Under the pieces are notes generated by a model. The model saw nothing but the letters and a program-made list of their open reading frames with translations, made no database searches and was not told the origin of the DNA. Source: Antedon bifida (Eukaryota > Echinodermata > Crinoidea > Comatulida > Antedonidae). Taken from it: a stretch of DNA of 64,000 nucleotides. Position 1 is the stretch's first letter, and the number at the start of each line of letters is the position of its first letter. A program made the position numbers and the translations under genes. Shown one piece after another: positions 37,579-64,000 of the stretch. The DNA lies in assembly GCA_963402885.1 (NCBI GenBank), contig OY727102.1, positions 11,656,001 to 11,720,000 on the forward strand. Direction: 5' to 3'.

Positions 37579-40025
37579 ATGGATAAAGCAAGCATTAATT
37601 GCGTCTCTATAAACGTAAGAGGCTTACGTAACATAGATAAACAAAGGCAGATACATAGTTGGTGTCAAGACCAAAAGGCTGACATTGTACTTATACAAGA
37701 AACACACCTTACACCTGACTTATTTGGCAAATTTAATTTAGTTTGGAACAGTACTTGCATACATAGCACTGGTTTTTCAAATAGTGCAGGGGTATCAATA
37801 ATATTCTTAAATGAATTCAATTTTAAGATTACTAACGAATGTATCGATAAAAATGGAAGATATATAATTCTAAATGTTGAAATTAATGGTAAAATGCATG
37901 TTTTTGTAAACGTATATGCTCCTAACAATTATAAAGTAAGAAGCTCATATTTCAGAAAGTTAAATGAGACCATTTTGGATATTGTTGACTTAAACAACGA
38001 TATAATTATTATCGGCGGGGACTTCAATTGTATTTTGGACAGAAAATGGGACCAAAAGAACAGTAAAGACAGAAAAGATACATCTGTTTTTACACTTAAA
38101 AATTTTATTAAAAAATTTAATTTAAAAGATGCCTGGAGAAATAAAAATCCAGAAAAATTACAATATACCTGGCGTAGAAAATCTAAGCAAATTTACAGAC
38201 GGCTTGATTACTGGTTGACTTCTAAACAAATTCTTGATCACGATGACGTAATATCATGTGATATAAGACCAGCTATCTTGACAGATCATCAAGCAATTTC
38301 AATTAAAATCAGTTTTGATGAGTCCAAAAGAGGCCCAGGTTATTGGAAATTTAATAACAACCTATTGCAAAATACTGATTACCAAAACTATATTACAAAT
38401 GTAATTAAAAAAACCCAAACCAATGAAAATAACCTTAGCCCAGATGTATTATGGGAATTATTAAAAGCCAAAATTAAAGACGTTTCAATCTACTATGGCA
38501 AAAAAATCAATAAAGAAAAAAAAATAAAAAAAGTAAAACTAGAAAAAGAAATAAAAAAACTAAATGATTCTTTATTAAAAAATGATTATACTGCCAATGA
38601 GAGCATAGAAGCAAAAATTGCAAAAAAAACAAAAAAGCTGGAAAATATTTATGATAATGAAACAAAAGGTGCATATATACGTTCTAGAGTAAAATGGATT
38701 GAAGAGGGCGAACGTAGCACTAAATATTTTCTTAGTCTGGAAAAAAATAAGGGAAAAAAAAACCAAATCAAATGTTTACAAAACGAGAAGGGTAGAGTAC
38801 TAACAAAGACAAAGGAAATCCTTTGTGAAGAAGTTAGATTTTATAGGCATCTATATGCAAATAAGGGTATATCCCGTAAACAAATAAACACTTACCTAGA
38901 TAAATCAAATGTAACGAGTTTAACTGAAGAAGAAAAGGGGACATGTGAAGGTATTGTCACACTAAATGAATGTACCAATGCAATTAAAAAAATGAAATTA
39001 AATAAAACTCCCGGATGTGATGGCTTGACCGTTGAGTTTTATTTACATTTCTGGGATGACATTAAACACATTGTTTGTGACGCTCTAAATGCATGTTATT
39101 TTAACAATGAAATGAGTTCTACACAGAAACGTGGTATTATAAGCCTATTATACAAAAAAGGTGATAAAAAATTGCTTGAAAACTGGCGTCCTATCACTTT
39201 ATTAAATACAGACTACAAAATTTTAACTCAAATTCTATGTATGAGACTTCATAAAGTAATTGAAAATGTAGTTGACAATGACCAAAAGGGGTACATTAAA
39301 GGACGATTCGCTGGAGAAAACGTCCGTCTAATTAATGATATTCTATATTATACAACAGAAGAACAAATCGAAGGAGCTATTTTATCCCTTGATTTTAGAA
39401 AAGCCTTTGATTCTGTAAATAGAGATTTTATGTTTAAGGTACTAAAAAAATTTAATTTTGGAGACTCCTTTTTAAAATGGGTAAATACAATTTATAGTAA
39501 AACTGAATGTGTTATTGTTAATAATGGTTGGATATCAGAAAGTTTTGAAATGGAATGCGGAATAAGACAGGGTTGCCCATTGTCGGCGTTACTCTTTATT
39601 TTAGTAGTAGAAATTATGGCGTGTAATATAAGAAAAGATAAATGCTATAAAGGAATATCTTTACCTAACAATGATAATGGTGAGGAAGTTCGCATTGCGC
39701 ATCTGGCGGATGACACTGTACTCTTTGTGGGAAATGAAAAAAGTATAGAGATTGGTTTAAATATTGTTAATAAGTTTGGTAAAGTGTCTGGTATGAATTT
39801 AAATAAAAAAAAAACCAACGCTATATGGATTGGCAAAAATATAAACAAAATTGAAAAACCATGCAGTCTAAATTGGGTTAATGAACCAATTAAGATTTTG
39901 GGTATTTATGTGGGATATAATGAGAACAAATGCAGTGAATTGAATTGGGATAGTAAGGTGGCAAACTTAGAAATGCTACTCAATAGATGGAAAGGAAGAA
40001 ACCTAACCTTTTTTGGCAAAGTTAC
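37579..40025 (+). CDS. LINE ORF2, part 1: APE endonuclease and reverse transcriptase
   Basis: The APE-type endonuclease (residues 1-235) shows INVRGLR, QETHLT, NVYAPN, IGGDFNCILD, RRLDYWL and LTDHQAI. The reverse transcriptase (about 440-760) shows NWRPITLLNTDYKIL, LSLDFRKAFDSVNRDF, GIRQGCPLSALLF and the catalytic HLADDTVLF. The phrases ISLLYKKGDKK and NWRPITLLNTDYKIL are typical of Tx1/L1-type LINEs. The element would nick target DNA and copy its RNA at the nick. The element sequence stops at FFGKVT; in the chromosome the frame reads on into the palindrome and stops at 40198-40200, giving an aberrant tail. So this copy is inactivated by insertion, not by point mutation. Confidence 0.88.
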
Positions 40026-40789
40026 TATGGCAAGCCTCAGCTGTCTGAAGTATTCAAAATATTATATTATTATATCATTTTTTTATTATATTATATATTG
40101 TATTGTAATGAATTATACGTTTTGCATTATATTACTTGGTTTTAGCATTATATTATATCTATTTCTAATATATTATGTGAAAAATGTAACAAATTATTGA
40201 CTTTTTGTATTATATTATTCGGTTTTGGCATTATATTATGAACATTTACTATTATATTATTAATAAAATACATTATATTATAATATAATTGTATTATATT
40301 AAACGCATTTACCTTACTTTATAACATACAACATTATTATATTATACGGATTCGTTAGTTATATTATTATTTTGTATGATGTTTATTATACGTCACGACT
40401 TATTTCAGTTCTTCTAACTCTTTCTCTCCCTCCCCCTGCTCACTAACAATCAGCGGCAGAATCTGAATTGTGTGACTGTTGAAGAATAACTAATTATCTT
40501 TACTACGTACTAGGCCTAGGCCTACTAGGGGATCTAGCCTAGACGTAGCTAGTTAGACAAGTGACCAAGGACCACCGGACAGCTACAACTAATACTACAA
40601 TACAATAATACTACTACAATAACTAATACTGCTACTACCTAGGCCTAGCTAGTAGAGTACTAGGTAGCTACTACTAGGCTCTAGGGCGTATGTATGATGT
40701 TAACTACTAGGCCTAGGCCTACTAGTACTAGGCTACCCAGCTAGCAATGACACGTTGGGCCGACGTTGGTTTAAGGTCAACAGTTACGT

Positions 40790-41275
40790 TGGCCCAACAG
40801 CTTTATGCGACGTAGGCCCGACGTAATTTTTTCCATCGGCCCTTAGTGGGCCCAACGTGTTGGTCAGACGTTGGTACAACGCGTTGGGCCAACGTCGGTA
40901 TAACGTCATTGTTTACGTTGGCTTATGAACTTTCTGCGACGTAGGCCCGACGTAGATTTTTCCATCGGCCCTTGGTGGGCCCAACGCGTTGGGTAGACGT
41001 TGTCCCAACGCGTTGGGCGAACGTCGGTATAACGTCAATGTTTACGTTGGCTTATCAACTTTCTGCGACGTAGTCCCGACGTATTTTTTTCCATCGGCCC
41101 TTAGTGGGCCCAACGCGTTGGGTAGACGTTGTCCTAACACGTTGTGCCAACGTTGGTATAACGTCTTTGTTTACGTTGGCTTATCAACGTTCTGCGACGT
41201 AGGCCCGACGTAATTTTTTACATCGGTCTTTAGTGGACCCAACGCGTTAGACAGACGTTGGTGCAACGTCATTGT
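40790..41275. repeat. 129-bp tandem repeat, about four units
   Basis: TGCGACGTAGGCCCGACGTA recurs at 40806, 40935, 41064 and 41193, exactly 129 bp apart. Each unit also holds TTCCATCGGCCCTTAGTGGG and one or more CAACGCGTTGGG-type palindromes. It forms the left subterminal block of the 4.2-kb element. Confidence 0.9.
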
Positions 41276-43479
41276 TGCCATCTTTGGCCTAATGCGTTGG
41301 ACAAACGTTGACCCAACCTCTTGGTTTAACGTCGGCTGAACGTCATAGAATACGGTATCCCAGCTTCTGATGACGTTGGTGTAGTAGAATCAGTACATTA
41401 GATACATTTTGCAGCCCAATATGTACGTTGGAACATCGTCGGTTCAATGACAACTTGGCGCAAAGTAACAAATATGGCATTAACCCTGTTAAAACACAGA
41501 TATGATGATAAAACAATATTTTAGCACTGGGTGATTTAAACTAATGGGTTTGTAGAGTTTTGCAACTAAAACCCGATAAAAACAGACAATACCAATATTA
41601 ACAAAAGTATTATGTTAAAACAACGTTTTAGCTTTGGATATTTTCAGTTACAGTTGTAACTAAAACTATTTAAAAACAGTTGATAATACGCAAGACGCAG
41701 ATATATGTTAAATAATGTTTTTAATAAATATATCCTATTAACGGATACCGTAGAGACAAAACAATTTAACTAAAATTATACATCTGTTTCCTAATAGAAA
41801 AAATACGGTTTAATTTTAAAGACATAAAGTACTGTAGGTCTACATTTTATATTACTGTATAACTTTACTATTCTATACAAAATACAATAAATACATATTA
41901 AAACAACAATATTTTTTACTTAATTTCAGTCATACCAGTCAGTAAAGACCAGTGTATTTTTCTTTGGCTTAAGACACGTTTATACTGTACAGTACTACGA
42001 TAAGTAGATAAACATACTGTACATTTTTCTTACGGAAAACAAAAGAAATCGACAAGGTTTTCAACCTAGAACTATGGGATAACTATTTATGCCATTTATG
42101 TCTTTGTATTGTAGTCAATAAGAACAATAACATTATTATCACGATATTATTGCTCTTACTAAAACTGACGTCATCTGATTCATTGTGAAAATATTATTTT
42201 CATAGACAGCATAGATTGAAAATGTAATAAAGAATTCTAAGGTTATTAATGTACTGTATATACCTATATAAACACAAATGTTTGTTTCTTATTAAGATCT
42301 ACCTTAAGTAGGCCTACTTCTTTTTATGTTACAATTACAATTTGCAACACGACTGTACATAATTCGAACTTCAAATAGTTCTAGTTGTGTTTCTCATTCT
42401 AATTCAACATTAGTGTCCTTATCAAATTTAAAAAGTACATATCACATCGCACATAAGATACATTGTTCTACGACTGTAAAGCAGAGTGACGATTGGACCA
42501 TTTGAGGTATAAATTGTTGCCACGTCATCCGGTCTTATACTGGTATATTTCTGTAAAAAAATTATTAACGATATGATAGAAATGTGTTTATGATATGATG
42601 ATGCTAAAAATGCTGTGTTCCAATTAAAAGAGGGATAAATTATATTTTGCTTAAATTGTCAGTGTAGTAGACTACATATTAGCTTCATAAAACTACAGAC
42701 AGGCATGCAATATCAAATGGCGATTAATAAAATATGGGATTATATTTAGCAGTATTAAGGTCCTATCCTATAACTATAACTTAGAAATGAATACATATTA
42801 CAATACTCTAATAATGACAAGAGGTATAAATTAATCAATACGTATTTATTTTATTTTACGAATATTTTGATATTCAAGGTAATAGCTATTTTAAGTAAAC
42901 ATCAAAACTATAAAGAAGTGGTAGTGTTATGCGCGGTTTGAACGATCACTCAGAGGTATTACAAGAATATGAATATATAGGCCTACAGTACTGTTACACC
43001 GGTTCGCTCAATGGCAAAACGGTGATGTAAAAACTTGGATATATATCAATTGTACGATTTGTAATCAACGAAAACATTTTAAACTAACCTAAAATTTAAA
43101 AATACAAAATCTTACCAGCAAAATAATAACAAGCAACATTAACTGAAGAGCAAGATGATAGCAGTTACCAATTCAAAATTCAAATGGAGACTTCCGTCGT
43201 TAGGTAAAGTACAGTTAAGTGAATGGAATGTGACCTAGGTTCTCCCATTAGAGTAATTAATGTCACTCGTAGTGGCTAAAACAATATAATTAATAGTTTT
43301 TATCAGAGGAGGGCTCTCTGTATTCTGGTTCCCTGGTTTTAGTTATATGGTATACCTGAGTACATCTCACTGAAGATGCCTTAATTACAAATTTTAACTC
43401 CAACTACACGATGCTTCTATTTGAGTCGATGTCCAAGAGTTGGGATGACGTATGGAATCCAACCGAATGTGTAACTATC

Positions 43480-44950
43480 CGCCAATTATGATATGTTTGA
43501 CGTTCGGCTGACGTTGGATCAACAACTTGCAGATGATGTAGACATGCACCTATTTTTTTTTCAAACTTCAAACGTTGGGTCGACGTTAGAATTATACACA
43601 TTGTTAGCCGATGTCGGCGCAACGTGAAAAAATGACTATAGTGCGTACGGTCGATTTGCTAACGTTGATCCAACGACTATGGAGACGTTAAATCAATGGA
43701 AATTTGTCAAATTGCCAACGTTGCGACGACGTTTGAACTACATGTCAAGTAGATGACATTAGACAGCACTTGTTTTTTGTAAAATTGTAAAAATCCAAAC
43801 GGTGGGCTAACTTTAGATCCTACGCAATTGTTAAAACTATTAGCCGACGTCGGCGCAACGTGAAAATATGACTATTATTGCGTCGACATTTGCTAACGTC
43901 GAAACAACGACTACATCGACGTTAAATCAACAGGAATTTGCTGACTTAGAAAATAGTATGTATTTCCAACGTTTCGACGACGTTAATTTTGACAACTTTT
44001 AGCCAACGTTGGCGCAAGTGCCCACGATATTTCGACGTTTAAATGACGTTGGATCAACAACTTGTATGACGTTAGAAGACATGCACATATTTTCTGTTAA
44101 AATTCTAACGTCGGGTCGACGTTAGAATTCCTACTCAATTTTTACAACTATTAGTCGATGTCGGTGCAACGTAAGACAAATGACTATATTGTCGACATGT
44201 TCTAACGTTAAATCAACGACTAATGGCGACGTTGAACCAACGGAAATTTTCCGACTTGACAAGTTGTAATATATTGTCAATTGGCCAACGTTGCGACGAC
44301 GTTTTAAATTTGACAACTTTTTACAACTTTTAGCCAACATTGGTGCAACGTGCCCACAATATTGTCGACGTTGGACTGACGTTGGATCAACAACTTGTAT
44401 GACGTTAGACATGCACCTATTTTGTGTTAAAATTCCAACGTCGGGTCAACGTTAGAATTCCTACACAATTGTTACAACTATTAGTCGATGTCGGCACAAC
44501 GTAAGAAAATGACTAGGCAGCGTCGACATTTGATAACGTTGAGCCAACAACATATAGCGACGTTAAATCAACGGAAATTTGCCGACTTAAAAAGTTGTAA
44601 TACAATGTCAAATTGCCAACGTTGCGACAACGTTAGAATTTTGACAACTTTTTACAACTTTTAACCAACGTTGGTACGACGTGTCAAAAACAACTCTAAT
44701 ATGTTGACGTTTGTAGACGTTGTGCCAACCAATGATAACGACGTCAAACAGACGTTGGATTTATGTTATCCCAAGGCACATTTGTCGGCACATTTTTCAA
44801 CGGAAATACGACGTCAGCAAGACGTTAGACTAACAACCATTAAATTCACGACTTATAGTAAACGTTGTCATAACGTTGTAACAACGTCGGTCATTTGCCC
44901 GCGACTTTGTCGACGTTTGCCAACGCTTGCCGACGTCGAGCCAACGTCAA
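43480..44950. repeat. Long-period (about 333 bp) degenerate repeat with CAACGTYG motifs
   Basis: GACGTTGGATCAACAACTTG occurs at 43510, 44045 and 44378, and the series GACGTTAGAC…GTCGGGTCRACGTTAGAATT…AGTCGATGTCGGCRCAACGT…GCCAACGTTGCGACGACGTT recurs between them. The last two full units are 333 bp apart. It forms the right subterminal block of the 4.2-kb element. Confidence 0.75.
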
Positions 44951-47900
44951 ATTGCTAGCTGGGTAGGCCTAGACTTAAGTTGTAGTAGGCTAGGGCCGGG
45001 CCTGCTGCCTTAGGCTAGGCTACTACTACTACTAGGCAGTCAGCCCATGATGGGTACGAGTAAGCCAAAATTTTGGATAAGTAAACCAAAATTTGGGTAC
45101 GAGCGAGTTGGCATGGGTACGGGTTGACCTGTATCCTTCTAGCTAATTGTACTAGGCCTAGGCCTCAAGTAAGTCTACGCTACCCAGTCCGGCTACAATA
45201 TGGTTTATTTTGTTTTATAGCTTTATTGATAGCTGGGTTCAAATCTGGGTTGGGATGGCTTTTTCTCATTCAAAAACAGATTTCCTTATCATAATAAAAT
45301 AATATATGAATTTATTTGTAATATTGTAATGTATACATAATATAAGTAATTGCCATTGCATTTATTATTATTTATTATATATTATACGGTTACCCCTTAA
45401 TTATACTATAGTATAATTTCCTTGTTATATTTTACAATATTTTCTTCATAATTCTACAATTTTGTCTTTCACAGCACAAATTTATCATACTGAATCATCA
45501 CACACCAAGTCTCATAAATTTCTACTGTATTTGTCCAAGCTACTCCAGCTACATGGTATTGCCTTGAGGCTAAACTACACGGTTTACTGGCACTACCATT
45601 ATTCCTGGCTCGTCAACCTGGACCACATAAGCACAGTTTCAGTTTCAGTTTATTTACCATTTCAATTTCTGAACATAAGAGATGAACAACTTATATGGAT
45701 GGATAACCGTAAGAGCGAAGCTCGTTTACCGGTCACCCGTTAGTGCAGTAACATTACGGACAACATAAAGACAGGACAAAGGTGCAATACATGTGAACAC
45801 TTGTGTTTGCAACCCCTTGGATAAAATAATATATTTATATAAAGGAGAAAGTTAGATATTATAATATTTCTTTTCGATCATACAATGATAATTTTAAAAT
45901 TAATTAAATCCTAAGAAGTCATACTACTGATTCAAAATAGTGACTGACTTACACCCTGTGGTCAAGACTTGCTCTTATGCTTATTTCCTCCAACATACAG
46001 AGTACATAGGACTATTTTTATTCATAACTGTTGAATTGCATCCCAATACACAGTACCTATTGGTATTACAGTATAACTAAAAATACAAAGGCAACTAACA
46101 CAGATAGTTCCATATATACAGTACTCTCTTATAAATAGATGTATCTCTCCAATCTACTCCCAACTACCTAATCTAATAATAGTACTATTAGCATACTACT
46201 ATACACTTTGTAGACAAGAAGTAAGTTGTATACACCTAGAGGACTTATGGTAGTACAGTCGAACGCCCTCTCACTGGCCCGGTCAACATAATCTATACCT
46301 AGATTATTGCAGTAATTAAAGTACATTATTACAGAAATTTTTTTTTTGTTGCAGAAATCAAAGTTATGTGTATAGAAAGCAGTACTCGTATTAAAAACTA
46401 AGCAGGTTGTACTCTTGAACGCAAACTGGCAGGATATTTTGAATATTTTTTATTGTTGAAATGAATGGAATCCTAACTTCATTTTCTACGAACTGGAGAC
46501 GAAGACATATTATGACCCTTTTATTTAAATTTATTTGAATAGACCTCCATGTAAATTCATTAAAGGCTACATGATTGTTTTATATTTTAATATGTGATAC
46601 TAATAGTAGAAAATTATTTATATAATGAGGACTAAGAATCTGATATTCACTTGCATTCTCATCTTTTTAAAATTTTATTTATAATGCTGGTAATGAGTTT
46701 AAAATTTAATTATATTGACTAGTTTTGATAATAATTATGTCCTTATAAATTCATTTACATTTCTTTTGTGTAATATAGTTCATATATTATGTATTAAATA
46801 AATTGGTAAGGCCCTGTACTGTTATTATTTAAGGAAAGTTTATATACACTTATTTTATGCCTACCAATATTAGTATAATTGTTTATATAAATATTTTGTC
46901 TAATTGCCTTGATTTTTTGTATAGGCCAATGGCATCAATGTTTTTCTCAAAGCAAATTAGCCTAATAATGCCACATTTAGACACATGATTCATTGATTTC
47001 TGATATTCTGTACTTGTGTATGCATTACTAAAATAACCTAGTAGTTAATATATTTCATTTGTAATGTATGTATAAACATTCATTTTTTTTTCACATTTTT
47101 AAATTTAAACATTATTACAATACCTACCTTTCTGATATTGTTACTATTGTATGATATTTTTTGAGGCAGATTGTTTTCAATAAAAAAAAATTTTAACAAA
47201 CAATTATTTTGACTTATACTGTACTATGTTAGTTCAGGAGATGAAGTGTGTGTGGGCAGAATCTGGTGTGATGTGTGGTGTGTATATTTGTCACTTTAAG
47301 ACCTAAATTAGATGTTTTCTGAAGAAAAGAAGTAAAAGGATACGCTTTCAAACAACTCCAAGAAGATTCACACAAAAATAATTACTTTCCAATAAAATAG
47401 TATAACAGTGTATATTACAGTACATTGAATAAACTCGAGCGGAAAAATAACGCACATAAAAAAACATTCATTTTCTTGTCGAAAAGTGCCCTCTCTAGTT
47501 TTCTATTAATTTATTAATAATTATTATTAATTAATGAGTAATAGGAACATATTTTTAACATTCAATGCTGGAAACTGGTTCTACTCCTAACAAAGTTTAA
47601 TACCTCCAAATTTCATCAACGTATTCAAAGCACTTAAATAAATATCATCTAACATTACAAATCCAGGTTTTGATAGAATTTTGCTTAAAAACATATACAA
47701 AAAACATCGATAAAAAATACTTTTCGTATTCAAAAACATTTGATACTTGGTATAAATGTTCAATATAGGTTGCTCCATCCATATTGCAAAAAAAAAATAA
47801 CTATCAAGCCATATCACTGATTTTTTAAATTTACGTTTTTACAAAATGTACACTTATGAAAGACTATACAATTCCAACTCATTTTTTTCAAGCTAATAAC

Positions 47901-50900
47901 TATTTTGAAAAAACAACCAACAAAAAACGTTCATGAATGCAATTTTGTTTCTGTGAATAGAGCAACCTATAGTGAACATTTATACCAAGTATCATCTGTT
48001 TTTGAATACGAAAAGTATTTTTTATCGATGTTTTTTGTATATGTTTTTAAGCAAAATTCTATCCAAAACCCGAATTTTTTATGTTAAATGTGATATTTAA
48101 TATTGAAGTGCTTTGAATACGTTGATGAAATTTGGAGGTATGAAACTTTGTTAGGAGTAGAACCAGCTTCCAGCATTGAATGTTAAAAATATGTTCATAT
48201 TACTCATTAATTAATAATAATTATTAATAAATTAATAGAAAACTATAGAGGGCACTTTTCGACAAGAATATGAGTGTTTTTTTATGTGCGTTATTTTTCC
48301 GCTCGAGTTTATTCAATGTACTGTAATATACACTGTTATACTATTTTATTGGAAAGTAATTATTTTTGTGTGAATCTTCTTGGAATTGTTTGAAAGCGTA
48401 TCCTCTTACTTCTTTTCTTCAGAAAACATCTAATTTAGGTCTTAAAGTGACAAATATACACCTCACACCACCAACCTCCAACACACCAGATGCCCACACA
48501 CATTTCATATCCTGAACTAACATAGTACAGTATAAGTCAAATTAATTGTTTTAATTTTTTTTTATTGCTGCCTCAAAATATATTATACAATAGTAACAAT
48601 ATCAGAAAGGTAGGTATTGTAATAATTTTTAAATTTAAAAATGTGAAAAAAAACTTAATGTTTATACATACATTACAAATGAAATATATTAACTACTTGG
48701 TTATTTTAGTAATGCATACTCAAGTACAGAATATCAGAAATCAATGAATCATGTGTTTAAATGTGGCATTATTAGGCTAATTTGCGTTGAGAAAAACATT
48801 GATGCCATTGGCCTATACAAAAAATCAAGGCAATTAGACAAAATATTTATATAAACAATTAATACTAAGTAGGCATAAAATAAGTGTATATAAACTTTCC
48901 TTAAATAATAACAGTATAGGGCCTTACCAATTTATTCAATACATAATATATGAACTATATTACACAAAAGAAATAATGATTATCAAAACTAGTCAATATA
49001 ATTAAATTTTAAACTCATTACCAGCATTATAAATAAAATTTTTAAAAGATGAGAATGCAAGTGAATATCAGATTCTTAGTCCTCATTATACACAATGATT
49101 TTCTACTATCACATATTAAAATATAAAACAAACATATAGCCTTTAATGAATTTACATGAAGGTCTATTCAAATAAATTTAAATAAAAGGGTCATAATATG
49201 TCTTCGTCTCCAGTTGTTGCAAAGAAGTTAGGATTCCATTCATTTCAACAATAAAAAATATTCAAAATATCCTGCCAGTTTGCGTTCAAGAGTACAACCT
49301 GCTTAGTTTTTAATACGAGTACTGCTTTCTATACACATAACTTTGATTTCTGCAAAAAAAAAAAAAAAAATCTCTGTAATAATGTACTTTAATTACTGTA
49401 ATAATCTAGGTATAGATTATGTTGACCGGGCCAGTGAGAGGGCGTTCGACTGTACTACCATAAGTCCTCTAGGTGTATACAACTTACTTCTTGTCTACAA
49501 AGTGTAAGTAGTATGCTAATAGTACTATTATTAGATTAGGTAGATTGGAGAGATACATCTATTTATAAGAGAGTACTGTATATATGGAACTATCTGTGTT
49601 AGCCGCCTTTGTATTTTTAGATATAATACCAATAGGTACTATGTATTGTATGATAAAAAAGAAATATTATAATATCTATCTTTCTCCTTTATATAAATAT
49701 ATTATTTTATCCAAGGGGTTGCAAACACAAGTGTTCACATGTCTTGTTATGTATTGCACCTTTGTCCTGTCTTTATGTTGTCCGTAATGTCACTGCACTA
49801 ACGGGTGACCGGTAAACGAGCTTCGCTCTTATGGTTATCCATCCATATAAGTTGTTCATCTCTTATGTTCAGAAATTGAAATGGTAAATAAACTGAAACT
49901 GAAACTGTGCTTATGTGGTCCAGGTTGACGAGCCAGGAATGATGGTAGTGCCAGTATACCGTGTAGTTTAGCCTCAAGGCAATACCATGTAGCTGGAGTA
50001 GCTTGGACAAATACAGTATGATAAATTTGTGCTGTGAAAGACAAAATTGTAGAATTATAAAGAAAATATTGTAAAATATAACAAGGAAATTATACTATAG
50101 TATAATTAAGGGGTAACCGTATAATATATAATTAATAATAATAAATGCAATGGCAATTAGGGCCTAGGTACTATTACAAATAAATTCATATATTATTTTA
50201 TTATGATAAGGAACTCTGTTTTAGAATGAGAAAAAGCCGTCCCAACCCAGATTTGAACCCAGCTATCAATAAAGCTATAAAACAAAATAGACCATATTGT
50301 AGCCGGACTGGGTAGCGTAGACTTACTTGAGGCCTAGGCCTAGTACGATTAGCTAGAAAGAAGGATACAGGTCAACCCGTACCCATGCCAACTCGCTCGT
50401 ACCCAAATTTTGGTTTACTTATATTTGGTTTACTACTCGTAACCATCATGGGCTGGCTGCCTAGTAGTAGTAGTAGTAGTAGTAGCCTAGCCTAGCCTAA
50501 GGCAGCAGGCCCGGCCCTAGCCTACTACAACTTAAGTCTAGGCCTAGCCTAGCCTAGGCTAGTACTAGTAGGCCTAGGCCTAGTAGTTAACATCATACAT
50601 ACGCCCTAACCCCCCTAGAGCCTAGTAGTAGCTAACCTACCTAGTACTCTACTAGCTAGGCCTAAGTATTAGCAGTAGTAGTTATTGCATTAGTAGCATT
50701 ATTGTATTGTAGTATTAGTTGTAGCTGTCCGGTGGTCCTTGGTCACTTGTCTAACTAGCTACGTCTAGGCTAGATCCCCTAGTAGGCCTAGGCTAGGCCT
50801 AGTACGTAGTATAGTTATTCTTCAACAGTCACACAATTCAGATTCTGCCGCTGATTGCTAGTGAACAGGGGGAGGGAGAGAAAGAGTTAGAAGAACTGAA

Positions 50901-51278
50901 ATGAGCCGTGACGTATAATAAACATCATACAAAATAATAATATAACTAACGAATCCGTATAATATAATAATGTTGTATGTTATAAAGTAAGGTAAATGGG
51001 TTTAATATAATACAATTATATTATAATATAATGTATTTTATTAATAATATAATAGTAAATGTTCATAATATAATGCCAAAACCGAATAATATAATACAAA
51101 AAGTCAATAATTTGTTACATTTTTCACATAATATATTAGAAATAGATATAATATAATGCTAAAACCAAGTAATATAATGCAAAACGTATAATTCATTACA
51201 ATACAATATATAATATAATAAAAAAATGATATAATAATATAATATTTTGAATACTTCAGACAGCTGAGGCTTGCCATA

Positions 51279-51337
51279 AAGTTACCATTTTAAAAAGTTT
51301 AGCTTTGTCTAAACTAACATACAATGCATGTATAATT
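51279..51337 (+). pseudogene. LINE ORF2, part 2 (17-codon fragment between two palindromes)
   Basis: 51279-51285 (AAGTTAC) repeats 40019-40025. From there the sequence reads VTILKSLALSKLTYNACII, exactly what is expected after FFGKVT in Tx1-type ORF2. It ends at ATAATT (51332-51337), where the second palindrome begins. This fragment is the proof that palindromes 1 and 2 are separate insertions in one LINE copy. Confidence 0.85.
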
Positions 51338-54300
51338 TATGGCAAGCCTCAGCTGTCTGAAGTATTCAAAATATTATATTATTATATCATTTTTTTATTA
51401 TATTATATATTGTATTGTAATGAATTATACGTTTTGCATTATATTACTTGGTTTTAGCATTATATTATATCTATTTCTAATATATTATGTGAAAAATGTA
51501 ACAAATTATTGACTTTTTGTATTATATTATTCGGTTTTGGCATTATATTATGAACATTTACTATTATATTATTAATAAAATACATTATATTATAATATAA
51601 TTGTATTATATTAAACGCATTTACCTTACTTTATAACATACAACATTATTATATTATACGGATTCGTTAGTTATATTATTATTTTGTATGATGTTTATTA
51701 TACGTCACGACTTATTTCAGTTCTTCTAACTCTTTCTCTCCCTCCCCCTGCTCACTAACAATCAGCGGCAGAATCTGAATTGTGTGACTGTTGAAGAATA
51801 ACTAATTATCTTTACTACGTACTAGGCCTACTAGGGGATCTAGCCTAGACGTAGCTAGTTAGACAAGTGACCAAGGACCACCGGACAGCTACAACTAATA
51901 CTACAATACAATAATACTACTACAATAACTAATACTGCTACTACCTAGGCCTAGCTAGTAGAGTACTAGGTAGCTACTACTAGGCTCTAGGGCGTATGTA
52001 TGATGTTAACTACTAGGCCTAGGCCTACTCCACTAGTACTAGGCTAGGCCTAGACTTAAGTTGTAGTAGGCTAGGGCCGGGCCTGCTGCCTTAGGCTAGG
52101 CTACTACTACTACTACTAGGCAGTCAGCCCATGATGGGTACGAGTAAGCCAAAATTTTGGATAAGTAAACCAAAATTTGGGTACGAGCGAGTTGGCATGG
52201 GTACGGGTTGACCTGTATCCTTCTAGCTAATTGTACTAGGCCTAGGCCTCAAGTAAGTCTACGCTACCCAGTCCGGCTACAATATGGTTTATTTTGTTTT
52301 ATAGCTTTATTGATAGCTGGGTTCAAATCTGGGTTGGGATGGCTTTTTCTCATTCAAAAACAGATTTCCTTATCATAATAAAATAATATATGAATTTATT
52401 TGTAATATTGTAATGTATACATAATATAAGTAATTGCCATTGCATTTATTATTATTTATTATATATTATACGGTTACCCCTTAATTATACTATAGTATAA
52501 TTTCCTTGTTATATTTTACAATATTTTCTTCATAATTCTACAATTTTGTCTTTCACAGCACAAATTTATCATACTGAATCATCACACACCAAGTCTCATA
52601 AATTTCTACTGTATTTGTCCAAGCTACTCCAGCTACATGGTATTGCCTTGAGGCTAAACTACACGGTATACTGGCACTACCATTATTCCTGGCTCGTCAA
52701 CCTGGACCACATAAGCACAGTTTCAGTTTCAGTTTATTTACCATTTCAATTTCTGAACATAAGAGATGAACAACTTATATGGATGGATAACCGTAAGAGC
52801 GAAGCTCGTTTACCGGTCACCCGTTAGTGCAGTAACATTACGGACAACATAAAGACAGGACAAAGGTGCAATACATGTGAACACTTGTGTTTGCAACCCC
52901 TTGGATAAAATAATATATTTATATAAAGGAGAAAGTTAGATATTATAATATTTCTTTTCGATCATACAATGATAATTTTAAAATTAATTAAATCCTAAGA
53001 AGTCATACTACTGATTCAAAATAGTGACTGACTTACACCCTGTGGTCAAGACTTGCTCTTATGCTTATTTCCTCCAACATACAGAGTACATAGGACTATT
53101 TTTATTCATAACTGTTGAATTGCATCCCAATACACAGTACCTATTGGTATTACAGTATAACTAAAAATACAAAGGCAACTAACACAGATAGTTCCATATA
53201 TACAGTACTCTCTTATAAATAGATGTATCTCTCCAATCTACTCCCAACTACCTAATCTAATAATAGTACTATTAGCATACTACTATACACTTTGTAGACA
53301 AGAAGTAAGTTGTATACACCTAGAGGACTTATGGTAGTACAGTCGAACGCCCTCTCACTGGCCCGGTCAACATAATCTATACCTAGATTATTGCAGTAAT
53401 TAAAGTACATTATTACAGAGATTTTTTTTTTGTTGCAGAAATCAAAGTTATGTGTATAGAAAGCAGTACTCGTATTAAAAACTAAGCAGGTTGTACTCTT
53501 GAACGCAAACTGGCAGGATATTTTGAATATTTTTTATTGTTGAAATGAATGGAATCCTAACTTCATTTTCTACGAACTGGAGACGAAGACATATTATGAC
53601 CCTTTTATTTAAATTTATTTGAATAGACCTCCATGTAAATTCATTAAAGGCTACATGATTGTTTTATATTTTAATATGTGATACTAATAGTAGAAAATTA
53701 TTGTGTATAATGAGGACTAAGAATCTGATATTCACTTGCATTCTCATCTTTTTAAAATTTTATTTATAATGCTGGTAATGAGTTTAAAATTTAATTATAT
53801 TGACTAGTTTTGATAATAATTATGTCCTTATAAATTCATTTACATTTCTTTTGTGTAATATAGTTCATATATTATGTATTAAATAAATTGGTAAGGCCCT
53901 GTACTGTTATTATTTAAGGAAAGTTTATATACACTTATTTTATGCCTACCAATATTAGTATAATTGTTTATATAAATATTTTGTCTAATTGCCTTGATTT
54001 TTTGTATAGGCCAATGGCATCAATGTTTTTCTCAAAGCAAATTAGCCTAATAATGCCACATTTAGACACATGATTCATTGATTTCTGATATTCTGTACTT
54101 GTGTATGCATTACTAAAATAACCTAGTAGTTAATATATTTCATTTGTAATGTATGTATAAACATTCATTTTTTTTTCACATTTTTAAATTTAAACATTAT
54201 TACAATACCTACCTTTCTGATATTGTTACTATTGTATGATATTTTTTGAGGCAGATTGTTTTCAATAAAAAAAAATTTTAACAAACAATTATTTTGACTT

Positions 54301-57300
54301 ATACTGTACTATGTTAGTTCAGGAGATGAAGTGTGTGTGGGCAGAATCTGGTGTGAGGTGTATATTTGTCACTTTAAGACCTAAATTAGATGTTTTCTGA
54401 AGAAAAGAAGTAAAAGGATACCCTTTCAAACAACTCCAAGAAGATTCACACAAAAATAATTACTTTCCAATAAAATAGTATAACCGTGTATATTACAGTA
54501 CATTGAATAAACTCGAGCGGAAAAATAACGCACATAAAAAAACATTCATTTTCTTGTCGAAAAGTGCCCTCTCTAGTTTTCTATTAATTTATTAATAATT
54601 ATTATTAATTAATGAGTAATAGGAACATATTTTTAACATTCAATGCTGGAAACTGGTTCTACTCCTAACAAAGTTTAATACCTCCAAATTTCATCAACGT
54701 ATTCAAAGCACTTAAATAAATATCATCTAACATTACAAATCCAGGTTTTGATAGAATTTTGCTTAAAAACATATACAAAAAACATCGATAAAAAATACTT
54801 TTCGTATTCAAAAACATTTGATACTTGGTATAAATGTTCAATATAGGTTGCTCCATCCATATTGCAAAAAAAAAATAACTATCAAGCCATATCACTGATT
54901 TTTTAAATTTACGTTTTTACAAAATGTACACTTATGAAAGACTATACAATTCCAACTCATTTTTTTCAAGCTAATAACTATTTTGAAAAAACAACCAACA
55001 AAAAACGTTCATGAATGCAATTTTGTTTCTGTGAATAGAGCAACCTATAGTGAACATTTATACCAAGTATCATCTGTTTTTGAATACGAAAAGTATTTTT
55101 TATCGATGTTTTTTGTATATGTTTTTAAGCAAAATTCTATCCAAAACCCGAATTTTTTATGTTAAATGTGATATTTAATATTGAAGTGCTTTGAATACGT
55201 TGATGAAATTTGGAGGTATGAAACTTTGTTAGGAGTAGAACCAGTTTCCAGCATTGAATGTTAAAAATATGTTCATATTACTCATTAATTAATAATAATT
55301 ATTAATAAATTAATAGAAAACTATAGAGGGCACTTTTCGACAAGAATATGAGTGTTTTTTTATGTGCGTTATTTTTCCGCTCGAGTTTATTCAATGTACT
55401 GTAATATACACTGTTATACTATTTTATTGGAAAGTAATTATTTTTGTGTGAATCTTCTTGGAATTGTTTGAAAGCGTATCCTCTTACTTCTTTTCTTCAG
55501 AAAACATCTAATTTAGGTCTTAAAGTGACAAATATACACCTCACACCACCAACCTCCAACACACCAGATGCCCACACACATTTCATATCCTGAACTAACA
55601 TAGTACAGTATAAGTCAAATTAATTGTTTTAATTTTTTTTTATTGCTGCCTCAAAATATATTATACAATAGTAACAATATCAGAAAGGTAGGTATTGTAA
55701 TAATTTTTAAATTTAAAAATGTGAAAAAAAACTTAATGTTTATACATACATTACAAATGAAATATATTAACTACTTGGTTATTTTAGTAATGCATACTCA
55801 AGTACAGAATATCAGAAATCAATGAATCATGTGTTTAAATGTGGCATTATTAGGCTAATTTGCGTTGAGAAAAACATTGATGCCATTGGCCTATACAAAA
55901 AATCAAGGCAATTAGACAAAATATTTATATAAACAATTAATACTAAGTAGGCATAAAATAAGTGTATATAAACTTTCCTTAAATAATAACAGTATAGGGC
56001 CTTACCAATTTATTCAATACATAATATATGAACTATATTACACAAAAGAAATAATGATTATCAAAACTAGTCAATATAATTAAATTTTAAACTCATTACC
56101 AGCATTATAAATAAAATTTTTAAAAGATGAGAATGCAAGTGAATATCAGATTCTTAGTCCTCATTATACACAATGATTTTCTACTATCACATATTAAAAT
56201 ATAAAACAAACATATAGCCTTTAATGAATTTACATGAAGGTCTATTCAAATAAATTTAAATAAAAGGGTCATAATATGTCTTCGTCTCCAGTTATTGCAA
56301 AGAAGTTAGGATTCCATTCATTTCAACAATAAAAAATATTCAAAATATCCTGCCAGTTTGCGTTCAAGAGTACAACCTGCTTAGTTTTTAATACGAGTAC
56401 TGCTTTCTATACACATAACTTTGATTTCTGCAAAAAAAAAAAAAAAATCTCTGTAATAATGTACTTTAATTACTGTAATAATCTAGGTATAGATTATGTT
56501 GACCGGGCCAGTGAGAGGGCGTTCGACTGTACTACCATAAGTCCTCTAGGTGTATACAACTTACTTCTTGTCTACAAAGTGTAAGTAGTATGCTAATAGT
56601 ACTATTATTAGATTAGGTAGATTGGAGAGATACATCTATTTATAAGAGAGTACTGTATATATGGAACTATCTGTGTTAGCCGCCTTTGTATTTTTAGATA
56701 TAATACCAATAGGTACTATGTATTGTATGATAAAAAAGAAATATTATAATATCTATCTTTCTCCTTTATATAAATATATTATTTTATCCAAGGGGTTGCA
56801 AACACAAGTGTTCACATGTCTTGTTATGTATTGCACCTTTGTCCTGTCTTTATGTTGTCCGTAATGTCACTGCACTAACGGGTGACCGGTAAACGAGCTT
56901 CGCTCTTATGGTTATCCATCCATATAAGTTGTTCATCTCTTATGTTCAGAAATTGAAATGGTAAATAAACTGAAACTGAAACTGTGCTTATGTGGTCCAG
57001 GTTGACGAGCCAGGAATGATGGTAGTGCCAGTATACCGTGTAGTTTAGCCTCAAGGCAATACCATGTAGCTGGAGTAGCTTGGACAAATACAGTATGATA
57101 AATTTGTGCTGTGAAAGACAAAATTGTAGAATTATAAAGAAAATATTGTAAAATATAACAAGGAAATTATACTATAGTATAATTAAGGGGTAACCGTATA
57201 ATATATAATTAATAATAATAAATGCAATGGCAATTAGGGCCTAGGTACTATTACAAATAAATTCATATATTATTTTATTATGATAAGGAACTCTGTTTTA

Positions 57301-58359
57301 GAATGAGAAAAAGCCGTCCCAACCCAGATTTGAACCCAGCTATCAATAAAGCTATAAAACAAAATAGACCATATTGTAGCCGGACTGGGTAGCGTAGACT
57401 TACTTGAGGCCTAGTACGATTAGCTAGAAAGAAGGATACAGGTCAACCCGTACCCATGCCAACTCGCTCGTACCCAAATTTTGGTTTACTTATATCCAAA
57501 ATTTTGGCTTACTCGTAACCATCATGGGCTGGCTGCCTAGTAGTAGTAGTAGTAGTAGTAGCCTAGCCTAGCCTAAGGCAGCAGGCCCGGCCCCAGCCTA
57601 CTACAACTTAAGTCTAGGCCTAGCCTAGCCTAGGCTAGTACTAGTAGGCCTAGGCCTAGTAGTTAACATCATACATACGCCCTAACCCCCCTAGAGCCTA
57701 GTAGAAGCTAACCTACCTAGTACTCTACTAGCTAGGCCTAAGTATTAGCAGTAGTAGTTATTGCATTAGTAGTATTATTGTATTGTAGTATTAGTTGTAG
57801 CTGTCCGGTGGTCCTTGGTCACTTGTCTAACTAGCTACGTCTAGGCTAGGCTAGATCCCATAGTAGGCCTAGGCTAGGCCTAGTACGTAGTATAGTTATT
57901 CTTCAACAGTCACACAATTCAGATTCTGCCGCTGATTGCTAGTAACCAGGGGGAGGGAGAGAAAGAGTTAGAAGAACTGAAATGAGCCGTGACGTATAAT
58001 AAACATCATACAAAATAATAATATAACTAACGAATCCGTATAATATAATAATGTTGTATGTTATAAAGTAAGGTAAATGGGTTTAATATAATACAATTAT
58101 ATTATAATATAATGTATTTTATTAATAATATAATAGTAAATGTTCATAATATAATGCCAAAACCGAATAATATAATACAAAAAGTCAATAATTTGTTACA
58201 TTTTTCACATAATATATTAGAAATAGATATAATATAATGCTAAAACCAAGTAATATAATGCAAAACGTATAATTCATTACAATACAATATATAATATAAT
58301 AAAAAAATGATATAATAATATAATATTTTGAATACTTCAGACAGCTGAGGCTTGCCATA
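51338..58359. mobile_element. Giant palindromic (foldback) element, copy 2 (uninterrupted)
   Basis: It is 7022 bp with the same TATGGCAAGCC…GGCTTGCCATA ends. The left arm is 51338-54858 (3521 bp), the loop about 54859-55032 (174 bp), the right arm 55033-58359 (3327 bp). The target duplication is ATAATT (51332-51337 and 58360-58365). The arm difference of 194 bp is explained by the same left-only stretch as in copies 1 and 3, near 52965-53135. Sequence agreement with copy 1 looks very high, with mainly microsatellite and small indel differences. Small open frames in the arms occur twice per copy on opposite strands and show no protein-like features. Confidence 0.9.
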
Positions 58360-58821
58360 ATAATTGATGTACCAGATGATGTTATTTTTAAAATAAATAA
58401 ATTGATATATAACTTTTTATGGAATGGAAAAACAGAAAAAATAAAAAGAAAAACTTTAATCGGTAAAATGATTAAAGGGGGCATAGGTATGCCTGATTTC
58501 GCATTACACATAAACTCGCTGAAAATGATATGGGCAAGAAAATTACTGTGTAGAAAACACGTAAGATGGAAAATCTTACCACTATACTATTTTAACAAAT
58601 TTGGAACCGAACAACTAATTTTAAGTATGTCAAATATCAATTTTAAAAATAACATGGGCTTAGATAATATACCATCTTTTTATTATAATGTTCTAAAGTG
58701 TTGTGTTGAATTTAATAATATGAATAATGAAGATACAATTAACAAGTATGAAGAAGTGATAAAGCAAAACTTATGGGGTAATAATTATATTAAATATAGA
58801 AACAAACCACTATTCTTTAAG
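58360..58821 (+). pseudogene. LINE ORF2, part 3 (C-terminal region)
   Basis: 58360-58365 (ATAATT) repeats 51332-51337; the frame then continues DVPDDVIFKINKLIYNFLWN, then IKRKTLIGKMIKGGIGMPDF, the conserved FLW-GK/L-GGLGMPD block behind the reverse transcriptase of Tx1-like elements. The frame is open for 152 codons up to NKPLFFK, where palindrome 3 starts (58822). Sequence after that belongs to the palindrome although the frame stays open to 58941. Confidence 0.82.
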
Positions 58822-61800
58822 TATGGCAAGCCTCAGCTGTCTGAAGTATTCAAAATATTATATTATTATATCATTTTTTTATTATATTATATATTGTATT
58901 GTAATGAATTATACGTTTTGCATTATATTACTTGGTTTTAGCATTATATTATATCTATTTCTAATATATTATGTGAAAAATGTAACAAATTATTGACTTT
59001 TTGTATTATATTATTCGGTTTTGGCATTATATTATGAACATTTACTATTATATTATTAATAAAATACATTATATTATAATATAATTGTATTATATTAAAC
59101 GCATTTACCTTACTTTATAACATACAACATTATTATATTATACGGATTCGTTAGTTATATTATTATTTTGTATGATGTTTATTATACGTCACGACTTATT
59201 TCAGTTCTTCTAACTCTTTCTCTCCCTCCCCCTGCTCACTAACAATCAGCGGCAGAATCTGAATTGTGTGACTGTTGAAGAATAACTAATTATCTTTACT
59301 ACGTACTAGGCCTAGGCCTACTAGGGGATCTAGCCTAGACGTAGCTAGTTAGACAAGTGACCAAGGACCACCGGACAGCTACAACTAATACTACAATACA
59401 ATAATACTACTACAATAACTAATACTGCTACTACCTAGGCCTAGCTAGTAGAGTACTAGGTAGCTACTACTAGGCTCTAGGGCGTATGTATGATGTTAAC
59501 TACTAGGCCTAGGCCTACTAGTACTAGGCTAGGCCTAGACTTAAGTTGTAGTAGGCTAGGGCCGGGCCTGCTGCCTTAGGCTAGGCTACTACTACTACTA
59601 CTAGGCAGTCAGCCCATGATGGGTACGAGTAAGCCAAAATTTTGGATAAGTAAACCAAAATTTGGGTACGAGCGAGTTGGCATGGGTACGGGTTGACCTG
59701 TATCCTTCTAGCTAATTGTACTAGGCCTCAAGTAAGTCTACGCTACCCAGTCCGGCTACAATATGGTTTATTTTGTTTTATAGCTTTATTGATAGCTGAG
59801 TTCAAATCTGGGTTGGGATGGCTTTTTCTCATTCAAAAACAGATTTCCTTATCATAATAAAATAATATATGAATTTATTTGTAATATTGTAATGTATACA
59901 TAATATAAGTAATTGCCATTGCATTTATTATTATTTATTATATATTATACGGTTACCCCTTAATTATACTATAGTATAATTTCCTTGTTATATTTTACAA
60001 TATTTTCTTCATAATTCTACAATTTTGTCTTTCACAGCACAAATTTATCATACTGAATCATCACACACCAAGTCTCATAAATTTCTACTGTATTTGTCCA
60101 AGCTACTCCAGGCTACATGGTATTGCCTTGAGGCTAAACTACACGGTATACTGGCACTACCATTATTCCTGGCTCGTCAACCTGGACCACATAAGCACAG
60201 TTTCAGTTTATTTACCATTTCAATTTCTGAACATAAGAGATGAACAACTTATATGGATGGATAACCGTAAGAGCGAAGCTCGTTTACCGGTCACCCGTTA
60301 GTGCAGTAACATTACGGACAACATAAAGACAGGACAAAGGTGCAATACATGTGAACACTTGTGTTTGCAACCCCTTGGATAAAATAATATATTTATATAA
60401 AGGAGAAAGTTCAGGCCCGTAGCCAGGGGGGGTTTTTATGGTTCGGGCGAACCCCCCTTTACAGCGAACCCCCCTTAACCGACTGCGAACCCCCATCCCC
60501 AACATGCCTAACACCTCACCCTCATCTTCGAAAATCTTCCAAATACGTGCCCAACAGTACAAAAAGTTGTTCGTAAATTGAAAAATTCGTAAACTCGTTC
60601 GGAATAACTCATACAGTACCTTCTTCCCTGTATGAGCGTACTTCGAGCGATACGTGTCTGTAAATTTCTAAGAGTTGCAAATGAATTGCCGATTTTAACC
60701 TGAAAAATAAATGTTTGGTCCTAACATGATTTTGACGCGTCTCACAGCGAGCTGGGGCACGAACGATTCGTACAAAGGACACCGCGCGTACCAATTGTTT
60801 AGATCACTGGCAGTCAGGCAGCATGCATAAAGTATATAGCCTTCCGACATACATCAGTATTTATGTGTGGTTATGAAGGATTATAGTGAATATTAATATT
60901 TTACACTATAATATCTATGGTATCATGTACTGTAGTTCACATTATGGCATCCGATTATTTTTTCTAGACCACCAGCCGATACGTATCAATATCACCTATT
61001 TACATAATTGGCATATTTAATTTCCTCAACAAATTGCTGTAAATGAATATTATAGATAGAGCTATAATAAGAATTGCATTTGCCTTCACCCAGTGTGCTT
61101 TTTTCGGGGCTTCTCCTAGACGTACGTTCGCATTGAACTTGAACGCAAAACAAAATACAGAGTAAATGATCAAACAATCGGCGGTTGCGCACAGAGCACG
61201 CGCATCTAACATACGGCAACAAATGTTATCGTCCTTTAAATAATCCACGAGTCCAAGTACGATCGTTTTGCTCATTGGTAGCATGCTGCATGAGAGTGTC
61301 TTTTCCGGCCATCTAAGAGTGTCATTTAACAAAATTCGCTTCGCCTCAGGCCCCACCCCAGGGGGGGGGGGGTGGGTGACGCAAATACATAGTGTCCGAA
61401 CCCCCCCTTGATAGATCCTGCCTACGGCCCTGAAGTTAGATATTATAATATTTCTTTTCGATCATACAATGATAATTTTAAAATTAATTAAATCCTAAGA
61501 AGTCATACTACTGATTCAAAATAGTGACTGACTTACACCCTGTGGTCAAGACTTGCTCTTATGCTTATTTCCTCCAACATACAGAGTACATAGGACTATT
61601 TTTATTCAAAACTGTTGAATTGCATCCCAATACACAGTACCTATTGGTATTACAGTATAACTAAAAATACAAAGGCAACTAACACAGATAGTTCCATATA
61701 TACAGTACTCTCTTATAAATAGATCTATCTCTCCAATCTACTCCCAACTACCTAATCTAATAATAGTACTATTAGCATACTACTATACACTTTGTAGACA

Positions 61801-64000
61801 AGAAGTAAGTTGTATACACCTAGAGGACTTATGGTAGTACAGTCGAACGCCCTCTCACTGGCCCGGTCAACATAATCTATACATAGATTATTGCAGTAAT
61901 TAAAGTACATTATTACAGAGATTTTTTTGTTGTTGCAGAAATCAAAGTTATGTGTATAGAAAGAAGTACTCGTATTAAAAACTAAGCAGGTTGTACTCTT
62001 GAACGCAAACTGGCAGGATATTTTGAATATTTTTTATTGTTGAAATGAATGGAATCCTAACTTCATTTTCTACGAACTGGAGACGAAGACATATTATGAC
62101 CCTTTTATTTAAATTTATTTGAATAGACCTCCATGTAAATTCATTAAAGGCTACATGATTGTTTTATATTTTAATATGTGATACTAATAGTAGAAAATTA
62201 TTGTGTATAATGAGGACTAAGAATCTGATATTCACTTGCATTCTCATCTTTTTAAAATTGTATTTATAATGCTGGTAATGAGTTTAAAATTTAATTATAT
62301 TGACTAGTTTTGATAATAATTATGTCCTTATAAATTCATTTACATTTCTTTTGTGTAATATAGTTCATATATTATGTATTAAATAAATTGGTAAGGCCCT
62401 GTACTGTTATTATTTAAGGAAAGTTTATATACACTTATTTTATGCCTACCAATATTAGTATAATTGTTTATATAAATATTTTGTCTAATTGCCTTGATTT
62501 TTTGTATAGGCCAATGGCATCAATGTTTTTCTCAAAGCAAATTAGCCTAATAATGCCACATTTAGACACATGATTCATTGATTTCTGGTATTCTGTACTT
62601 GTGTATGCATTACTAAAATAACCTAGTAGTTAATATATTTCATTTGTAATGTATGTATAAACATTCATTTTTTTTTCACATTTTTAAATTTAAACATTAT
62701 TACAATACCTACCTTTCTGATATTGTTACTATTGTATGATATTTTTTGAGGCAGATTGTTTTCAATAAAAAAAAATTTTAACAAACAATTATTTTGACTT
62801 ATACTGTACTATGTTAGTTCAGGAGATGAAGTGTGTGTGGGCAGAATCTGGTGTGAGGTGTATATTTGTCACTTTAAGACCTAAATTAGATGTTTTCTGA
62901 AGAAAAGAAGTAAAAGGATACGCTTTCAAACAACTCCAAGAAGATTCACACAAAAATAATTACTTTCCAATAAAATAGTATAACAGTGTATATTACAGTA
63001 CATTGAATAAACTCGAGCGGAAAAATAACGCACATAAAAAAACATTCATTTTCTTGTCGAAAGGTGCCCTCTCTAGTTTTCTATTAATTTATTCATAATT
63101 ATTATTAATTAATGAGTAATATGAACATATTTTTAACATTCAATGCTGGAAACTGGTTCTACTCCTAACAAAGTTTCATACCTCCAAATTTCATCAACGT
63201 ATTCAAAGCACTTAAATAAATATCATTTAACATTACAAATCCAGGTTTTGATAGAATTTTGCTTAAAAACATATACAAAAAACATCGATAAAAAATACTT
63301 TTCGTATTCAAAAACATTTGATACTTGGTATAAATGTTCAATATAGGTTGCTCCATCCATATTGCAAAAAAAAAAATAACTATCAAGCCATATCACTGAT
63401 TTTTTAAATTTACGTTTTTACAAAATGTACACTTAAATGAAAGACTATACAATTCCAACTCATTTTTTTCAAGCTAATAACTATTTTGAAAAAACAACCA
63501 ACAAAAAACGTTCATGAATGCAATTTTGTTTCTGTGAATAGAGCAACCTATAGTGAACATTTATACCAAGTATCATCTGTTTTTGAATACGAAAAGTATT
63601 TTTTATCGATGTTTTTTGTATATGTTTTTAAGCAAAATTCTATCCAAAACCCGAATTTTTTATGTTAAATGTGATATTTAATATTGAAGTGCTTTGAATA
63701 CGTTGATGAAATTTGGAGGTATGAAACTTTGTTAGGAGTAGAACCAGTTTCCAGCATTGAATGTTAAAAATATGTTCATATTACTCATTAATTAATAATA
63801 ATTATTAATACATTAATAGAAAACTATAGAGGGCACTTTTCGACAAGAATATGAGTGTTTTTTTATGTGCGTTATTTTTCCGCTCGAGTTTATTCAATGT
63901 ACTGTAATATACACTGTTATACTATTTTATTGGAAAGTAATTATTTTTGTGTGAATCTTCTTGGAATTGTTTGAAAGCGTATCCTCTTACTTCTTTTCTT
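58822..64000. mobile_element. Giant palindromic (foldback) element, copy 3 (right part beyond window), carrying a hAT-like insertion
   Basis: It begins TATGGCAAGCCTCAGCTG directly after LINE ORF2 codons at 58821. The left arm runs to about 63358, the loop to 63534, and the right arm from 63535 off the window edge. A 1021-bp element sits in the left arm (60412-61432). The left-only stretch is present (61497-61665), so all three copies have the same orientation relative to the LINE. The right end and target duplication cannot be seen. Confidence 0.85.
60412..61432. mobile_element. hAT-like nonautonomous element inserted in palindrome copy 3
   Basis: Ends CAGGCCCGTAGCCAGG and, at the right, CCTGCCTACGGCCCTG are imperfect inverted repeats of the CAGGGCCGTAG(C/G)CAGG type known from hAT elements. 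Flanking AAGTT (60407-60411 and 61433-61437) is a 5-bp target duplication; the empty site GGAGAAAGTTAGATATT is seen in palindrome copies 1 and 2. The subterminal runs are G/C-rich. A 118-residue minus-strand open frame (61356-61000) has hydrophobic stretches but no transposase motif. Confidence 0.8.

Follow-up and report, generated by a model that had tools for sequence, protein, structure and literature searches.

Giant palindromic foldback elements, probably of IS3EU type, clustered in a LINE of the crinoid Antedon bifida

The window analysed here is a 64,000-nucleotide stretch of Antedon bifida DNA (assembly GCA_963402885.1, contig OY727102.1, positions 11,656,001 to 11,720,000 of the forward strand), and coordinates are counted from its first letter. 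Using self-BLAST and the junction sequences we identified in this window a 7.0-kb inverted-repeat element with three copies, two of them complete and the third clipped by the window end, which together interrupt a LINE ORF2. The features of the region are as follows:

37579..40025, plus strand: LINE ORF2, 5' part, host of the insertions (endonuclease and reverse transcriptase; Pfam, 815 aa)
40019..40025 (left) and 51279..51285 (right), plus strand: target-site duplication AAGTTAC of copy 1 (junction sequences)
40026..40735, plus strand: copy 1, outer part of left arm (99.1-100% identity to copies 2 and 3)
40734-40735 and 44964-44965: TA duplication of the 4228-bp insert (junction sequences)
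40736..44963, no strand: nested insert in copy 1, 4228 bp, with 13-bp inverted ends CCCAGCTAGCAAT..ATTGCTAGCTGGG
44966..51278, plus strand: remainder of copy 1 (left arm as far as 47781, loop at 47782-47953, right arm at 47954-51278)
51286..51337, plus strand: LINE ORF2 between copies 1 and 2, terminating in ATAATT
51332-51337 (left) and 58360..58365 (right), plus strand: target-site duplication ATAATT of copy 2
51338..54859, plus strand: copy 2, left arm, 3522 bp
51373..51656, plus strand: copy 2, left-end array of ten ATTATATTA boxes, mostly in 21-bp phase, plus one opposite-strand box
54860..55031, no strand: copy 2, loop, 172 bp
55032..58359, minus strand: copy 2, right arm, 3328 bp
58041..58324, minus strand: copy 2, right-end mirror array of ten ATTATATTA boxes
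58366..58821, plus strand: LINE ORF2, in-frame continuation to copy 3 (joined frame without a stop)
58822..60411, plus strand: copy 3, outer part of left arm (self-BLAST)
60407-60411 and 61433-61437: 5-bp duplication AAGTT of the 1021-bp insert
60412..61432, no strand: nested insert in copy 3, 1021 bp, with ends CAGGCCCGTAG..CTACGGCCCTG
61433..64000, plus strand: remainder of copy 3, starting with the second AAGTT and clipped by the window end (left arm as far as 63359, loop at 63360-63534, then the initial 466 bp of the right arm)

Of the three, copies 1 and 3 are each split by a nested insert, and copy 2 (51338-58359) has none. The first-pass annotation of this DNA had described foldback inverted repeats with arms of 3.3-3.5 kb, a loop of about 174 bp, net lengths of 7023 and 7022 bp for copies 1 and 2, and shared ends. 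Self-BLAST and the junctions bear out the palindromes, we found the same two net lengths, and by coordinates the loops measure 172, 172 and 175 bp in copies 1, 2 and 3; the ends are indeed shared, as the five exact occurrences of TATGGCAAGCC (three) and GGCTTGCCATA (two) in the window are all at the five visible element tips. The count of three copies needs qualification: two are complete and the third is partial, its right arm being visible for 466 bp only. In copy 2 the arms make up 6850 of the 7022 bp, with the 172-bp loop between them, i.e., the long arms and little middle expected of a foldback element.

The 5' part of the LINE ORF2 matches Pfam RVT_1 (E 1.4e-36) and Exo_endo_phos (E 4.9e-16), and the ORF2 sequence between copies 1 and 2 and after copy 2 amounts to 52 + 456 = 508 bp, in agreement with the roughly 510 bp previously described as interrupted. 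When both complete copies were removed together with one duplication each, an open LINE frame of 985 codons with no stop was recovered, which matches the LINE protein P0002 across both junctions at 41% identity; five of five LINE proteins compared span the whole rejoined frame (about 40-42% identical). As the rejoined frame is stop-free, the LINE ORF was open over its visible part. The target duplication is 6 bp at copy 2 and 7 bp at copy 1, the latter being alternatively readable as 6 bp and an extra A or, with the right end taken to stop one base earlier, as 8 bp (AAAGTTAC); these are the two copies at which duplications are visible, the right side of copy 3 lying beyond the window. With two distinct duplications, and copy 3 at a third site, there were several independent insertions, and the palindrome transposed whole, each time to a different place in the same LINE. 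All three palindromes (40025-58822) have one orientation and are clustered in about 510 bp of the LINE; local hopping is a plausible source of this cluster, target preference being the other option.

Comparison of the arms showed the palindromes to be less regular than the near-perfect ones first described. The two arms of copy 2 have 115 differences over 3243 aligned positions (96.5% identical without gaps) and many indels, one of 161 bp, so that identity with gaps falls to about 92% (92.2-92.3% in the two largest self-BLAST pieces), and the longest perfect duplex between them is the outermost 279 bp. The copies are mutually far closer, at 99.5-99.8% identity with gaps excluded: copies 1 and 2 have 15 differences over 7000 aligned positions, and copy 3 has 19/4145 and 16/4143 differences from copies 1 and 2, respectively. 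From this mutual identity copies 1 and 2 would appear to be young. Across the five arms compared, namely both arms of copies 1 and 2 and the left arm of copy 3, 93 of 3219 ungapped columns (2.9%) have a fixed difference between left and right arms, and 28 gap events are likewise fixed. In the copy and arm alignments copy 1 was rejoined at 44955 where 44966 is correct, and the 11 extra bases, absent from the palindrome of copy 2, account for an 11-base gap and for rows 733-745. The fixed arm divergence exceeds that between copies by a factor of ~6 to 14 and is older than the copy split, so the palindrome was already formed before it multiplied. At three sites (columns 3382, 3437 and 3492) the copy 3 left arm has the right-arm base; we do not claim arm-to-arm gene conversion here, as mutation in an ancestor shared by copies 1 and 2 explains these sites equally well.

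The element ends are highly structured. All five visible ends have the termini TATGG..CCATA. A search of the window with the 11-base end, allowing up to 2 mismatches, gave 12 matches (5 exact, 7 inexact) vs 10.9 expected by chance, and so gave no sign of further copies in the window. Exact searches with a 30-base end pattern in viral contigs and with a 25-base end pattern in prokaryote genomes gave 0 matches each, as expected for an animal element; the genome of the window itself may be outside the search set. In the copy 2 left arm exact ATTATATTA boxes are at offsets 35, 59, 100, 121, 183, 204, 225, 246, 267 and 310, with no exact box inward of the last of these, so that the internal repetition of the arms is confined to their outer ~320 bp. 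On both strands of the window there are 58 matches to ATTATATTA, 55 of them within the five visible ends (eleven per end), and ten in the outer 400 bp of the copy 2 left arm were reached by 0 of 1000 dinucleotide shuffles (mean 0.37), the motif having been chosen post hoc with the data already seen. Spacings between boxes are near multiples of 21 bp, a phase matched by 0 of 20000 uniform random placements and, over periods of 10 to 39.5, equalled by 0 of 2000. Among the eight units with an exact box, a comparison that is illustrative only because the units were picked for that box, twelve spacer positions are variable, with 3 to 6 of the 8 agreeing; two or three further units of the array have degenerate boxes.

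The same outer region is conserved between arms. The first 279 ungapped columns have no difference at all among the five arms, and hence 0 fixed arm differences vs 8.1 expected (P = 2e-4), and the first 370 have one vs 10.7 expected (P about 2e-4), both column limits having also been set after the data were seen. This suggests selection or homogenisation at the element ends. We regard the phased boxes as probable, putative transposase-binding sites; as 21 bp is close to two helical turns, they would all face one side of the helix. The phase by itself is no proof of binding sites, a decayed tandem repeat being also phased. There is a tested parallel in the P-superfamily element Galileo, in which the THAP domain of the transposase binds several sites within the long repeats (PMC3688188).

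No recognisable coding capacity was found, as the first-pass annotation had supposed of an element multiplied without genes of its own. None of the six stop-masked frames of the copy 2 left arm, the arm scanned, had a Pfam match, and there was no Rfam match in 40000-64000. The longest stop-free frame of copy 2 has 108 aa (52501-52824), and a protein search with it returned one candidate and none at E 1 or better; its 63-aa C-terminal piece had one weak Pfam match (E 0.064, 13.2 bits vs a cut-off of 43) that we regard as chance.

Taking these features together, we think it probable that the element is a non-autonomous foldback DNA transposon, most likely a derivative of the IS3EU superfamily that has lost its transposase gene, is reduced almost wholly to two very long terminal inverted repeats and is moved in trans. 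Fungal IS3EU families have ends TAYGG..CCRTA and 6-bp target duplications, and those carrying TET genes have inverted repeats longer than 30 bp (PMC12730594); for IS3EU generally, the ends are given as 'always TA..TA' and the duplication as 'usually 6 bp' (PMC10045372). The TATGG..CCATA termini of the present element fit both end descriptions exactly at five of five visible ends, TAYGG..CCRTA being a consensus of fungal families that may not be the animal one, and the usual 6-bp duplication fits one of the two visible copies (copy 2). Unlike IS3EU, our element has arms of 3.3-3.5 kb, no visible transposase, and at copy 1 a duplication of 7 bp (or 6 bp and one base). A transposase encoded at another genomic locus would recognise both the TATGG end and the boxes phased over the outer ~320 bp, excise the whole 7-kb palindrome and insert it at staggered cuts, leaving the 6-7 bp duplications. 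We favour such a transposase in trans as the economical account, since it would explain at once the ends, the target duplications, the box array and how an element with no recognisable genes can move; that the mover is an IS3EU transposase we infer from the ends and duplications.

The arms could have been born by inverted duplication of one end in faulty gap repair, or by the union of two diverged copies. Gap repair after excision may have copied one end twice; the authors of PMC4168063 invoke faulty gap repair with template switching for defective Galileo copies. A composite origin, in which two diverged 3.4-kb elements in opposite orientation became one mobile unit, would leave the mobility the same and change only the birth of the palindrome, and we consider it possible but on the unlikely side. 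The excess of fixed arm divergence (93/3219) over the divergence between copies (15/7000 to 19/4145) implies that the palindrome is old or else that its two parents were unlike, and so is compatible with it; against it, TATGGCAAGCC is absent at the inner arm ends even at 2 mismatches, so these inner ends are unlike the ends of the same transposon.

A second alternative keeps the foldback mechanism and assigns the movement to a different transposase, that of Dada (6-7 bp duplications), P/Galileo (7-8 bp) or the Mutator foldbacks (8-10 bp), and this we judge unlikely. Dada fits by length, as its duplications of 6 or 7 bp cover both copies, and one Dada-tV copy sits in a hAT transposon rather than in an RNA gene; many Dada families target multicopy RNA genes, however (PMC8869645), and here the target is a LINE ORF2, with no tRNA gene found by ARAGORN in the window and none of the Rfam families in 40000-64000. 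Galileo does make giant foldbacks with 7-8 bp duplications (PMC4168063), but the 6 bp at copy 2 falls outside both P and Mutator, and TATGG..CCATA corresponds to the published IS3EU ends (PMC12730594). We thus rejected the P superfamily, though the 7 bp of copy 1 would fit it, and also the Mutator foldbacks, given duplications of 6 and 7 bp with symmetric ends, though copy 1 is readable as 8 bp; IS3EU is a better match than either P/Galileo or the Mutator foldbacks, whose duplications are 8-10 bp (Tetris) and 9 bp (Tm1).

Returning to an IS3EU-type passenger, its survival had been presented as paradoxical given the usual instability of long palindromes. This does not hold up against work on yeast, where a longer spacer and arm divergence each lower inverted-repeat instability (PMC10164571): in the wild type, a spacer of 200 bp in place of one of 12 bp reduced rearrangements about 20-fold, and divergence reduced instability, the yeast arms being 320-bp Alu sequences vs arms of 3.3-3.5 kb here. 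The main result of that study is that spaced, diverged repeats turn potent in long single-stranded DNA, where the protection is lost (PMC10164571). We would give little credence to a long-lived palindrome lineage in which the hairpin has been heritable for many generations, with arms ~3% apart and identical end arrays, as an IS3EU passenger that combines multi-site, same-face binding with a kilobase source of double-stranded RNA directed against its partner.

More doubtful still is the possibility that the element was kept because read-through hairpin RNA gives rise to small RNAs acting on a partner transposon or on the host. In a predicted one-strand transcript, 3131 bp of the arms would be paired and 53 stretches of at least 21 bp would be perfect, which favours such a role; yet the end array and the end conservation are already explained by transposition alone.

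Finally, foldback read artefacts do occur in long-read data (PMC12870357), but it is extremely improbable that sequencing or assembly joined the two strands of one molecule into a false palindrome, the refutation named beforehand in the first-pass annotation: a folded read would yield identical arms, whereas these differ by 115 substitutions and many indels, and the recurrence of 93 arm differences among independently inserted copies, both complete copies being flanked by their own target duplications with the LINE frame open over both empty sites, speaks for real DNA and is a strong argument against such an artefact.

Long inverted repeats in an echinoderm transposon have reportedly been described before, in the sea urchin TU elements (1983), the likeness being by description and not by sequence. 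Foldback transposons with arms of the present length are already known. Galileo copy 112 of Drosophila willistoni, of the P superfamily, has the same architecture and is larger (9021 bp, arms of 4246/4680 bp, no transposase segment, identical target duplications), and Galileo copies 147 and 145 have extended arms of similar structure as independent insertions; in contrast, Galileo duplications are 7-8 bp, and copy 112 is single and has ~140-bp tandem repeats in its arms (PMC4168063), whereas here the full-length 7-kb palindrome occurs in at least two complete insertions. Tetris of Drosophila virilis is likewise a non-autonomous foldback with long inverted repeats for which no partner was found, but its arms reach 1735 bp, with ~220-bp tandem repeats, its duplications are 8-10 bp and a Mutator affiliation is suggested (PMC4079207). 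Tm1 of root-knot nematodes also has foldback-like composite inverted repeats and non-autonomous family members, but belongs to a Mutator/Foldback family with 9-bp duplications (PMC3169594).

The suggestion that this is an undescribed family is hence right only in part: its ends are those of the IS3EU signature (PMC12730594), and the 9021-bp Galileo foldback is published (PMC4168063). What seems to be new is the combination of IS3EU-type ends on a giant foldback, the 21-bp phased array and a crinoid host; no new principle of mobility is involved. A limited literature search found no published giant foldback with IS3EU ends, the one listed paper to hold both 'IS3EU' and 'foldback' (PMC8268682) dealing there with other matters. 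If the IS3EU assignment is true, one more transposase superfamily gives rise to giant foldbacks, which would support the view that the foldback form evolves independently from different lineages (cited in PMC4079207). With its two complete copies and its defined array at the ends, the recent triple insertion is also suited to testing the handling of palindromic 7-kb cargo by a transposase, and the way in which diverged arms and a 172-bp loop keep such DNA heritable.

The nested inserts are of two kinds. Near one of its ends the 4228-bp insert in copy 1 has a tandem array of 129-bp units (4.0 copies), and near the opposite end there are 331-bp repeats (2.1 copies); the insert is rich in ACGTTGG/CCAACGT and has a single stop-free frame of at least 100 aa (104 aa). 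The ends of the 1021-bp insert in copy 3 (60412-61432) can also be given as CAGGCCCGTAGCCAGG and CCTGCCTACGGCCCTG, and judging by its ends we take this insert to be hAT-like. Elsewhere in the window there is a C2H2 zinc-finger gene (24064-28763, minus strand), whose protein (24067-27582) shares 97% identity with one of Antedon mediterranea over 98% of its length, the next relatives being two Anneissia japonica proteins (51% and 48%). From this one gene the host would be a feather star (Crinoidea) at or near Antedon. An ORF upstream of it (28398-28763) has what we take to be the look of a PR domain, and the gene is possibly PRDM9-like. A 37-bp satellite occupies 10528-11645 (30.2 copies, 97% matches), and self-BLAST revealed a local tandem duplication at 104-2563 (104-742 vs 1392-2046, 90.7%; 826-1246 vs 2141-2563, 93.5%), which contains a small, repeated minus-strand ORF.
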